64,000 bases of DNA, from contig NZ_RCMB01000010.1 in NCBI RefSeq assembly GCF_011319465.1, forward strand, positions 1-64,000, in the 5' to 3' direction. The translations under genes were made by a program, and so were the position numbers. The notes beneath the pieces are model-generated. The model was not told the DNA's origin. It ran no database searches and worked only from the letters and a program-made list of their open reading frames with translations. Shown piece after piece: positions 681 through 5,071 of this stretch; position 1 is the stretch's first letter; every line of letters begins with the position of its first letter. This stretch comes from Candidatus Nitrosotalea sp. TS. GTDB taxonomy: Archaea; Thermoproteota; Nitrososphaeria; Nitrososphaerales; Nitrosopumilaceae.

Positions 681-800
681 TTAATGTATTGCATCCCAGC
701 AACAGCATTTGTCCAAAGTACAATTAGGACAACTCTTGGGAGATTTTGATAATTCACATTCTGATGGCAAGCACCTACAGTCAGCACATTTTATTCTCAT
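681..800 (-). CDS. 39-residue cysteine-rich protein, probable metal-binding
   Basis: A complete small gene, ATG at 800 to TAA at 681, encoding 39 residues. Nine are cysteine: Cys5, Cys8 and Cys10 (CADCRC), Cys15, Cys24 and Cys27 (CPNC), and Cys32-34 (KCCCWD). Paired CxxC and CxC spacing in such a short chain suggests a zinc, iron or copper site, or a thiol relay; that is inference. The start codon lies four bases after the stop of the membrane-protein gene upstream on the same strand, so the two are probably co-transcribed and translationally coupled. No hydrophobic segment is present, so the product is likely cytosolic. I know no named family for it. Confidence 0.7.
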   Translation of the reverse strand: MRIKCADCRCLPSECELSKSPKSCPNCTLDKCCCWDAIH

Positions 801-804
801 GATT

Positions 805-1287
805 TCACTTTGTAATTTTGCACTGTGTAGTTATTCCCTTTACAGAAACATAGTATGTGTACCCCAAAATAGCAATAGAAATTAGGCGTAATGGAATCTC
901 ATAATTAGTCAGAAATGCAGTAGCTGCTCCACCTACTGCACCAAATTCCGATACTACTGCAAAGCCAATTGAACCACAACTGCATGCACCAGCACTAGCT
1001 CCTATGATTGAACCCAAGAACCCAGTTCCTGATCTCTTTATCCCACTGCCGAGCATATGAATTCTATATATGCTAAGGCTTATGACTAGACCAGATAGCG
1101 CTGCAACTATAACGATCAATGAGAAATTTGTAATATCATATACAGGAACATAGAAAAGAAAATTGGGTGAGAAGAAGATAAACTCTGAAACTATGGAAAG
1201 GGATATCAAGAGAACGCTGAAGATGGTAGCAGATAAGGCAAGATATCTCTTATTTGAAAATACTAAGCTCAATGCTTCTTTGTGCAC
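805..1287 (-). CDS. Four-TM membrane protein with an intramembrane CxC motif
   Basis: A 160-residue hydrophobic protein starting at GTG 1287. About four membrane helices are visible (roughly residues 15-35, 45-70, 88-112 and 128-150). The third carries a glycine/serine-rich stretch with GACSCGS, putting two cysteines one residue apart inside or at the edge of the membrane. Another cysteine lies near the C-terminus (TTQCKITK). I do not recognise the family. Its stop codon is four bases from the start of the cysteine-rich 39-residue gene, and a DsbA-like gene is transcribed divergently about 100 bases away, so a role in thiol or metal handling is plausible but unproven. Confidence 0.7.
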   Translation of the reverse strand: MHKEALSLVFSNKRYLALSATIFSVLLISLSIVSEFIFFSPNFLFYVPVYDITNFSLIVIVAALSGLVISLSIYRIHMLGSGIKRSGTGFLGSIIGASAGACSCGSIGFAVVSEFGAVGGAATAFLTNYEIPLRLISIAILGYTYYVSVKGITTQCKITK

Positions 1288-1422
1288 TTCATTTTATCTT
1301 AGGTCGCGATAATTATTTAACAATATTTCCAAATTGAACATGACTTTAGAACAGTTCAAGATTTAGTTGAATTTCATTTTGGAATCAATTTGGAAAAAAG
1401 ATTAAATCACAAAACAAGTTTA

Positions 1423-2315
1423 ATGAGCATAATAATGAACGCAATTGAAAAGTCATTGTTACTTACTTTAATCTTCATAATTACGGGTTTCTCTTATGCG
1501 TATGCAGATTCCATGCAAGGTAGTGGTTCGATGCCAATACATGAGAACAACATGATGAATGGTAGATGCGACATGTCAGGTGGCTCCACGATGGGCAATA
1601 ATATGTCTGGATGGGGGAATGGTTCCATGAAAGACGGCAGTATGATGATGCCAAGTGGAAGTGTTGACTTGTCCAATGGCATCACCAATATTAGGTTCAC
1701 AAAATGCGCCAGTTACCATAGTAGAGTTTGGCGATTACCAATGTCCAGAGTGTGATGCATGGTTCAAAAATCAGGAACCTGCTATCAAGGCAAATTATAT
1801 TGATACAAACAAAGCCAAGTTATACTTTGTAGACTTTCCGTGGGCAGGCGCAGATTCTATAGCAGCAGCAGAATCTTCCTATTGCGCCGGTGACCAAGGA
1901 AAATATTGGGAATATCACGATTACCTGTATCAGAATCAAGGAGGAATACAGACAGGTTGGGCCAGTACAAGCAACCTAAAGTCATACGCGAGCTTCACTA
2001 GGTCTTGACACAAATCAATTCAATACGTGTCTTGATTCTGGAAAATATTCAGACAGGGTTACTCATAATAGAGAAGTAGGCCTATCAAAAGGAGTTCAAG
2101 GAACTCCGACATTTTTCATAATTGGACCTTCTGGAGCAATGCAGGAGATAGTAGGTGCTCAACCAGCTTCAGTATTTTCTTCAGTCATTGATCAAATGAA
2201 CACACAGACAGTACCCGAGTTTGGTCCTGCAGCTGCCATAGTTCTCGTGATGGCGATATCTACATTAGTGATTATATCTGTAAAAGCTGGTCTAAGAATA
2301 GTTCCAAGATACTAA
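1423..2315 (+). CDS. DsbA/thioredoxin-fold oxidoreductase with Met-rich N-terminus and PEFG-type anchor
   Basis: Predicted exported thiol-disulfide oxidoreductase. ATG 1423 gives a signal peptide ending near SYAYA. A linker rich in Met, Gly and Ser follows, and then a DsbA-like domain beginning NAPVTIVEFGDYQCPEC, with redox motif CPEC. The DsbA cis-proline region GVQGTPTFFI is visible. The C-terminus has VPEFG followed by a hydrophobic helix and basic residues, the PEFG-CTERM pattern known from Nitrososphaerota surface proteins. Two frameshifts are needed: near 1681 (the signal/Met-rich part is in one frame, the CPEC part in another) and near 1993 before LGLDTNQF. A TTG at 1390 is an alternative start. 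The Met-rich segment resembles copper-binding linkers; that is inference. Confidence 0.8.
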
Positions 2316-2473: not shown

Positions 2474-4387
2474 ATGGTGGCTACGGAACCATTGGGCCAC
2501 TACAAACTTGAATCTGGTATGTTGAGACCAGATCGTCGTAACAATTGTACGCAGAATTGCTTTTACAAGAATTGTTGTTTTTAATACTTTCTTGACCATG
2601 GAATAATCAGGTTGTCGAATAAATCTAGTGACATGCACAGGTGCTGGAAAACCGTCTATCTGCATAACATCACAGCTGCCAGCCATTATTTTCATTGGCC
2701 TTTTTAATCTGCTTGTGACAATGAGAATATTACATCTTCCTTCGTCACTAATAGAGCTTAGAATAATCCCACCGGAATTTCTCTTCAAGAGTCATATCTA
2801 GAATCATTGATATCGATAATTCTTTTGATAAGTGCATTACATCTTATACGAGGAAAGAAATTTGCGTGTTACTTTTGTATAGGCGCCTTGGCCGTGTCTC
2901 TTCTGTTACACTCTTTTCACAGGCATAGTGCGGTTGAATTTGTTCTCCCTGCTACATTATTAACAATTTTAACAATTCAGAGAAATACTTATACTGTAAA
3001 AGGAGTATTTGGGCAAAATTTTTCTAGACGAGAAATGAGTTATCTTTTCTTTATTATGTGCGCAATATTCTTCATTTCATTTGTAGCATTTTACATGCAA
3101 GGAGGACAATTTAGTCCAACGCTTGGATTTCATGGGTCGGTAATATCGTCATTTATGTCATTTCTTCTTCTGGATACCACTAAGATATACAAACCAACCA
3201 CCCACATTGCAACAATATTGATAGAATCGGTAACGGTGTCATGGGTCATGTTCTATTCTTATCTTTCATACTCGATATTTTCTCGCGTATGGTCTGCTAA
3301 AAAAATAGGCATTGGATATCCTAAGAAAAGGCTTGACAAAATAATGAAAAGATATGGCTGTGAGTCGCAACATTGTTTTGCCTTGCATCCAGACAAAGAG
3401 ATTTACTTGATCGGAGATTGTAATGCGCTTTTGTCATATAAAATAGTGCACGGTGTAGGGATAGTTCTTGGCGGCCCAGTAGGATCGTCAGCAGAAAAGA
3501 AAAAAGCAATCGGAAATACAACCAATTTTGTAGGGAAAATGATATCATACCGGCATTTTATGGCTTTACTGAAAATGAGATAAACTATTACACGAGCTTG
3601 GGCATGCGGATAATCAAGATAGGCGAAGAAGGAGTCATAAATCCGCATACGTTTAACCTCAAAGGTTCTAGGATGAAGAACCTCAGGAATTCAGTAACCC
3701 GTGCAAGGCATCTGGGGGTCACATCCTGTATCGTTAGAAACAGAGACGAACTAGATGCAGAGATCCTAAAGAGACTGTCTGTTATTTCTTCGGATTGGAA
3801 TGCTGCAAGAACGAATGTAGGATTTTCATGCACTCCTTTTGACCCGAATTTTTTATTAGCAAATGATGATGAATTCTTGATTCTAGGTTATTACAAGGAA
3901 GAGATCTCTGCTTTCTTGACTTTGAAAATATATCCAAACAAGCGTGGTGCTACACTTGATATCATGAGAAGAATGAAGGATGGGCCTAATGGAATAACCG
4001 AATTAATGATAACCAAAGCTATTTCTTACCTATCCGTAAAATTTCCAGAAGTTACTGAGCTTAGCTTGGGCCTAGCTGGTCTTTCTGACTCACTTCGACA
4101 AATGGGATACTATGGCTTTGCTGAAAAGATATTGTTCTTTGTTGGATGGCGTCTCAACACATTTTATGGATACCAATCACTATTTTCTTTCAAGAACAAA
4201 TTTGACTCCTAAATGGAGAGCAAGATATCTGTCCACCCCGAATTCATTAGTCTTGTCCAAAGTTCTTTATTCAATATACAAGGCTCATGTTTTACCTGTT
4301 CCATCAAGACCGGAGTTATTCTTAAAAGGTTATAATATTATAGAAATAGATCTGAAAGCTAGAGCAGGACGAGTCAACTATAGTTGA
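2474..4387 (+). CDS. Lysyl-phosphatidylglycerol-synthase-like membrane protein (DUF2156/MprF type), frameshifted
   Basis: Multi-pass membrane N-terminus followed by a cytosolic DUF2156 domain, the GNAT-like aminoacyl-transfer domain of MprF/LPG synthases. The catalytic half is clear: the QHCFALHPDKEIYLIGD stretch, a VLGGPVG motif, FYGFTENEINYYTSLGM, NLKGSRMKNLRNSV, GATLDIMRR and a C-terminal PSRPELFLKGYN. Frame changes occur near 3560 and near 4190. The best open stretch begins around 2762, but plus-strand pieces further upstream (2539-2797) encode membrane-like segments (LPAIIFIGLFNLLVTMRIL) that fit the family N-terminus in shifted frames, so I place the start tentatively at ATG 2474. In bacteria the enzyme adds lysine to lipids; archaeal lipids differ, so the substrate is unknown. 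Confidence 0.75.
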
Positions 4388-4528: not shown

Positions 4529-4870
4529 ATGGAAAATAGGAAATCGACTATTGGGTCCATCATTGCCTTTGCAGTAGGCATAGGTATGATTGGTTCTTTT
4601 GCGATGGCCGGGTTTGTTCCTATGATGCCACAGGCATTTGCAGAACCTAGTGTGCAGTCTAATGTTGCATACAACGGCCCGCACGTACCACAAGTTTCAT
4701 TCCAACTGCAGAATGGAATTCCTCTGGGCCCGCCATATGGAACTCCAACATTATGGCATGAGGAGCAAACCACAGCTGTAGCAGTATCAGTTGGAGCACT
4801 TGTATTTGGAATAGCATTAGTGATCTATCTCGCAAGTGGCAAAAATCTGCCAGTTATGAAGATAAGATAA
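4529..4870 (+). CDS. Small exported/membrane protein, N-terminal signal and C-terminal TM helix
   Basis: 113 residues. The N-terminus (residues about 9-37) is a signal peptide or membrane helix ending AQAFA-like before EPSVQ. The middle is Pro/Gly/Gln-rich and non-repetitive, with LGPPYGTPTLWHEE. Residues about 88-106 form a second helix (VGALVFGIALVIYLA), ending in a short basic tail. This suggests a protein exposed outside the cell and anchored by its C-terminus. No family recognised. A T-rich stretch lies about 20-28 bases before the ATG, consistent with a leaderless transcript, and an oligo-T run follows the stop. Confidence 0.7.
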   Translation: MENRKSTIGSIIAFAVGIGMIGSFAMAGFVPMMPQAFAEPSVQSNVAYNGPHVPQVSFQLQNGIPLGPPYGTPTLWHEEQTTAVAVSVGALVFGIALVIYLASGKNLPVMKIR

Positions 4871-4888
4871 CCTCAAGTGCAAACCTCC

Positions 4889-4895
4889 TTTTTTT
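4889..4895 (+). terminator. Oligo-T terminator after the small membrane protein
   Basis: Seven consecutive T on the plus strand, about 20 bases after the stop codon at 4870. Oligo-T runs without a stem are the usual intrinsic termination signal in archaea. Confidence 0.5.
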
Positions 4896-4976
4896 GATAA
4901 ACACGACAGACGGTTTTGGCCGCTGCAACAACTAACAGCAGGCATTGTATCGCTGGAGTTTGTACTTTTAGTTGTA

Positions 4977-5071
4977 TACCGGGGGTGGGTTTCGAACCCA
5001 CGACCTCCAGATTATGAGTATTGTCCTTTTTGTGGAGACTGGCACTCTAGGCCAGGCTGAGCTACCCCGGC
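4977..5071 (-). tRNA. tRNA-Met (CAU), elongator type, with an intron
   Basis: Read on the minus strand, the 5' acceptor GCCGGGG (from 5071) pairs with the 3' strand CCCCGGT, with G1-U72 wobble. D arm GCTC...GAGT and T arm GTGGG-TTCGAAA-CCCAC are clear. The anticodon arm CCAG...CTGG encloses an extra ~19 bases. Removing them leaves loop CTCATAA with anticodon CAT. The intron therefore lies on the 5' side of the anticodon rather than at the usual 37/38 site. Mature length is about 76. Trp (CCA) is the alternative reading, but the tRNA body matches elongator Met (GCCGGGGTAGCTCAGCCTGG) better. Position 31-39 would be a U-U mismatch. Confidence 0.85.

Follow-up and report, generated by a model that had tools for sequence, protein, structure and literature searches.

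A nine-cysteine 39-residue protein of Nitrososphaeria, a putative cytosolic soft-metal thiolate protein

The window, a 64,000 nt stretch of the genome of Candidatus Nitrosotalea sp. TS (contig NZ_RCMB01000010.1), contains a gene of 39 codons whose product, judging by the sequence searches, is a member of a real, widespread, new and uncatalogued protein family. Under the reading that we prefer (probability about 0.6), this product is a cytosolic soft-metal thiolate protein that acts, for the membrane protein or enzyme of the adjacent gene, as a buffer or hand-over partner; here we infer metal binding, the side of the membrane and transfer. In ammonia-oxidising archaea the central enzyme is copper-dependent, and the internal movement of copper and zinc is little known. 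A thiol micro-protein at copper, zinc and arsenic loci, together with an uncatalogued membrane family closing zinc-uptake operons, provides concrete genes that can be tested. The features of the locus are as follows.

681–800, minus strand: gene of the 39-aa nine-cysteine protein, ATG at 800 and TAA at 681; member of the family described here
805–1287, minus strand: 160-aa membrane protein, GTG start, about four hydrophobic helices with CSC where the third begins, conserved C-terminal CKI
1288–1389, no strand: short intergenic gap from which the membrane/cysteine gene pair and the DsbA-like gene diverge, probably the promoter region
1390–2315, plus strand: exported DsbA-like thioredoxin (Thioredoxin_4), divergent, N-terminal region rich in Met, CPEC motif

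Translation of positions 681–800 of the minus strand reproduced the frame given in the preliminary description, with nine cysteines in 39 residues spaced as CxxCxC...C...CxxC...CCC. In the window copy, the motif reads CADCxC-P-xxC...CPNC...CCCW. Of the 218 ATG-initiated ORFs of 30–60 aa in the window, no other has nine or more cysteines. A set of 60 dinucleotide shuffles yielded a total of two such ORFs (0.03 per window), neither with the motif spacing; the alignment of homologues and the third-codon-position bias described below are far stronger evidence than this shuffle test. The genome is 71% complete and genes neighbouring the cysteine gene are frameshifted; the cysteine gene itself is intact and of normal length.

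A search with the single sequence against 61 related genomes gave a match in 24 of them. In the same genomes, 19 places (query included) were found at E below 1e-5, with 50–82% identity to the window protein and aligned cysteines. Asp7 and eight of the nine cysteines are invariant in these copies, and the ninth cysteine (C32) and Pro12 are nearly so. An initial alignment proved too diverse to be used in scanning the genomes. Cysteine counts on pattern-selected copies were circular and were superseded by a count on 68 free-standing loci collected without any pattern filter, in which each cysteine is present in 65–68 copies. Thus, the finding that had been named in advance as refuting the gene, namely the absence of a conserved cysteine pattern in relatives, was contradicted. 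Several other residues are conserved in the same 68 copies (Pro12 in 65, Ser20 in 61, Asp7 in 59 and Trp35 in 53), as is Pro25-Asn26. The members are 35–45 aa long with a core of eight to nine cysteines, and the eight-cysteine core remains where the ninth is absent (CDC and CCR variants).

Substitutions summed over close pairs of copies numbered 611, 533 and 1448 at the first, second and third codon positions, respectively. Compared with two near relatives, the window gene gave dN 0.10 and dS 1.5 (G005) and dN 0.09 and dS 1.8 (G018), and the close pairs are under purifying selection. A chance ORF or non-coding conservation is therefore refuted by the codon-position pattern and is hardly credible, despite the shortness of the gene and the existence of degenerate or interrupted copies (for example, the copy at about 4869–4976 of locus L059 in G156 has an in-frame TAG right before CCCW and may be decayed); it is also at odds with the occurrence of the family in many genomes and with in-frame fusions. 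Weak matches in G004, G016, G028 and contig C23 of G026 (E 0.03–0.3) were discarded because of broken frames, and a match in G423 was discarded as a chance similarity to a TnpB-like zinc ribbon.

A profile search found the family in 118 of 400 Nitrososphaeria genomes, belonging to 32 of 82 genera. Beyond the class, within the phylum, it was found in three genomes of one genus. The carriers include Nitrosotalea, Nitrosarchaeum, Nitrosopumilus, Nitrosocosmicus and other Thaumarchaeota MAGs. The distribution is patchy, with several copies in some genomes and absence from many complete relatives. No Pfam or NCBIfam model matched any of 19 members, a sequence search of the PDB with the peptide gave nothing credible, and the viral contig, phage and plasmid collections searched did not contain relatives. 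Text searches of one open-access library returned no description of the family. The gene had been supposed to lie below the usual size limits, and it is indeed a conserved, selected protein-coding gene outside these family libraries; a recurrent protein family can fall below usual catalogue sizes.

The start codon of the cysteine gene at 800 follows the TGA of the 160-aa ORF at 805 after a gap of 4 nt, as first noted, and the two genes are probably co-transcribed given this gap. The upstream product was also correctly recognised as a membrane protein with CSC: hydrophobic helices were found and the motif is located at about residues 104–106. Applied to charge only, the positive-inside rule suggests a cytosolic position for CSC and the last cysteine, since the loop ahead of the CSC helix and the C-terminus are both basic. 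Neither Pfam nor NCBIfam matched the window protein, Pfam matched none of nine members of its family, and the PDB sequence search with this family gave nothing credible. AlphaFold2 modeling reached a pLDDT of 46 for the membrane protein and 60 for the cysteine peptide (23 sequences); both models were too poor for use, and so no fold search was performed.

The CSC membrane family was found in 38 of the 61 related genomes, often in several copies. In genomes near the genus, 8 of 21 copies of the cysteine gene are located within 3 kb of a member of this family, with 0.18 expected under a null that, like those of the other proximity counts in this work, assumes uniform gene placement and independent genomes for neighbour families picked after inspection, so that P values are rough. 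The order of the two genes varies: the membrane gene may lie immediately upstream or with other genes in between, and it may also be on the opposite side or divergent. Thus, the link has been kept through rearrangement, the genomes involved all being close relatives. The proposed coupling of the two genes is therefore non-random but local, since most copies of the cysteine gene have other partners or are fused.

The partner family itself is tied to copper. Five of its 33 members lie within 6 kb of a match to the copper-ATPase family (0.46 expected), and islands containing a family member, a Cu-type P-ATPase and an archaeal TRASH regulator were found in G032, G025, G005, G028 and contig C16 of the window genome, with a DsbA-like gene in most of them. 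Copper islands at loci L116, L117, L118, L119 and L125 contain the Cu-type ATPase, the TRASH regulator, a CxC membrane paralogue and an exported protein of 150–180 aa. The latter carries the motif MHIHPxLxL...GMxGMAPLHTHDxxGxIHVES and has no Pfam match, as tested with the relative from G177.

The occurrence of DsbA-like, CxC membrane and cysteine peptide genes together at the window locus is what would be expected of a thiol-redox peptide, whose cysteine pairs would relay electrons between thioredoxin in the cytosol and the CxC membrane protein, the latter serving the outside DsbA-like protein in the manner of bacterial DsbD. A DsbA-like neighbour is present within about 6 kb at about 14 of 77 loci, a figure to be read with the fact that the cluster of 17 such neighbours contains three unrelated chained sequences; in G036 the cysteine gene starts 7 nt past the DsbA-like gene. 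However, most loci have no DsbA neighbour, none was found near the zinc-operon and arsenic contexts, and nine cysteines with a CCC run are unlike the design of a redox pair, so that this explanation is improbable. The DsbA-like gene of the window is broken near 1690 and 2000 into pieces in three frames, and in relatives it is an intact gene of 285–304 aa. The LPG_synthase_C-type gene at 2807–4212 of the plus strand is split as well; indel errors in the assembly are the probable cause in both cases.

Elsewhere, the cysteine gene was found behind genes for a DUF6789-like membrane protein, a DsbA-like protein, a Met-rich protein of the DUF7482 type, an exported repeat protein or regulators, often with a gap of 4–7 nt. 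Met-rich stretches recur among these neighbours, namely in the DsbA N-terminus, the DUF6789-like proteins and the DUF7482 proteins. In G264, G253 and G206 the cysteine gene is in one frame with the DUF6789-like membrane protein; with an internal ATG present, this is only a possible fusion. An arsenic cluster with the cysteine gene was found twice, in two distant families (L038 and L112). In the first case (G038), the gene is downstream of genes for an ArsC-like reductase and an aquaporin and ArsR is encoded divergently, and at L112 it is followed by genes for ArsM, ArsC and an aquaporin.

Metal genes are absent from the vicinity of many copies. P-type ATPase genes accompany 4 of 59 free-standing copies (0.71 expected, P 0.005), a weak link; the Cu(I) signature residues are present in two of these ATPases, and of the other two, one has CPC but not these residues and the other has no CPC. 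An earlier pooled count that included fused copies gave 6 of 68, with 0.68 expected. Zinc permeases accompany 2 of 59 free-standing copies, both in sister genomes (P 0.05), which is also a weak link. Because the links of the free copies are weak, no single metal was assigned. At the loci nearest to that of the window (G005 and G018), ZnuABC and NikR-like genes are located 3–5 kb from the cysteine gene.

A second membrane domain of about 175 aa was found in 43 of 400 genomes. It is built of two halves, both of which have an intramembrane E-x-x-C...A-E motif. Nearly every full-length case that was read has, ahead of this membrane domain, an N-terminal domain with the same cysteine pattern, degenerate in places. 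The window genome encodes one such protein, on contig C15. At L175 (3306–3935) and L176 (3774–4418), on the minus strand, the fused gene is the last in a znuA-znuC-znuB run, with gaps of 9 and 27 nt, respectively, so that genes for ZnuA, an ABC-3 permease and an ATPase, as in Zn/Mn ABC uptake operons, stand in tandem with it; at L175 a NikR-like gene is located at the opposite end of the run. Domain matches in the operons with fused genes confirmed ZnuA, ABC-3 and NikR_C. Seven of 39 fused forms are within 6 kb of an ABC-3 permease gene (0.34 expected), and none of 500,000 simulations gave as many. The PDB sequence search with the membrane domain returned nothing credible. On the basis of these gene contexts, the fused protein is a candidate new zinc-uptake component. 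In three larger versions, at L161 (contig C35 of G243), L159 (G278) and L160 (G143), another outside domain replaces the cysteine domain; two of them are near ABC-3 zinc permease genes.

Contexts of copper(I), zinc and arsenite were all found, and affinity for thiols is the trait common to the three. A pure copper role was considered and set aside, since the fused form is encoded in zinc operons and two copies of the gene belong to arsenic clusters; copper is slightly favoured for the CSC partner family and zinc for the fused form. In the cytosol, the peptide would use its cysteines to grip a thiophilic ion, namely Cu(I), Zn(II) or As(III), and would be a small buffer or hand-over partner of the membrane protein or enzyme encoded by the neighbouring gene. 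For the window copy, this partner would be the adjacent CxC membrane protein with CSC and the C-terminal cysteine at its cytosolic face, and the Met-rich DsbA-like protein would be on the outside. The simplest reading offered before, a metal or thiol-transfer pair, fits the copper, zinc and arsenic neighbourhoods, and it is from this context that we infer the role itself. The weak links of the free-standing copies to metal genes, the many copies with no such gene close by, and the conservation of Asp7, Pro12, Ser20, Pro25-Asn26 and Trp35 beyond what a loose metal sponge needs count against the buffer or hand-over reading. More tentatively, and with the odds somewhat against it, the small nine-cysteine domain could be a portable module of Nitrososphaeria. 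Either alone or in fusions with two or more unrelated membrane protein families, it would then provide copper, zinc and arsenite systems with a common cytosolic unit for docking and hand-over, and one of its fused forms would be an undescribed component of zinc uptake.

The same conserved positions, together with the retained eight-cysteine core, which is enough for two ZnCys4 sites, may also indicate a structural zinc-finger micro-protein, in which zinc would not be cargo but would hold a fold contacting a partner protein, nucleic acid or membrane protein. One report describes many archaeal micro-proteins of such a size with C(P)XCG motifs as binding zinc (PMC11241148). The Haloferax and Halobacterium members of this group (Brz, HVO_0758 type) are likewise archaeal one-domain proteins of less than 70 aa with CPxC-like knuckles, but they have four cysteines rather than nine and no profile matched the cysteine peptide. 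The paired C(P)XCG motif is absent, with Thr or Ser instead of Gly after CPNC and Gly after CADC in about half of the copies. The CCC run is unusual, and repeated metal-transport and arsenic gene contexts would not be expected for a generic finger, which makes this alternative rather unlikely. Models of the archaeal TRASH (PF08394) and YHS domains did not match the family either.

Among known systems, the peptide resembles bacterial metallothioneins of the SmtA/NmtA type, with which it shares a very small size, CxC/CxxC spacing and the expected cytosolic soft-metal thiolate chemistry; 9 of its 39 residues (23%) are cysteines, within the approximately 15–30% typical of metallothioneins. Aromatic residues are rare or absent in metallothioneins, whereas Trp35 and several other residues are conserved here; in addition, relatives are fused to membrane domains, and none of the 19 members matched a metallothionein model in Pfam or NCBIfam. 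The metallochaperones CopZ (HMA domain) and ArsD would share the hand-over role beside a copper ATPase or ars genes, but the peptide is much smaller and has no match to ArsD or to the Pfam HMA model. The MerP-MerT mercury import relay similarly combines an outside thiol protein, a small membrane protein with a cysteine pair and cytosolic acceptor thiols. The window membrane protein has CSC instead of CC, no mer genes were recognised, and the Pfam MerT model did not match nine members of its family. The Csp copper storage protein is a cysteine-rich copper protein of the same archaeal group with 18 cysteines (15.3% of residues), and under copper limitation N. viennensis is reported to up-regulate it, with changes in CopC/D and DsbD (PMC7785015). 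A comparative study reported that Dsb genes were gained repeatedly in this archaeal group (PMC7554672). However, Csp is a four-helix bundle, a fold of about 100 residues or more, in contrast to the 39 aa with CxxC and CCC clusters found here. The cysteine peptide would be metallothionein-like or similar to small metallochaperones in its working, but by its sequence it is outside every family tested.

Two further observations concern the window itself. Positions 1–420 of the plus strand encode the last part of a protein with AEGIDGIPIPK repeats, which the contig start truncates and which has a frameshift near 340, and a 95-nt tRNA match, long enough for an intron, is located at 4977–5071 of the minus strand.
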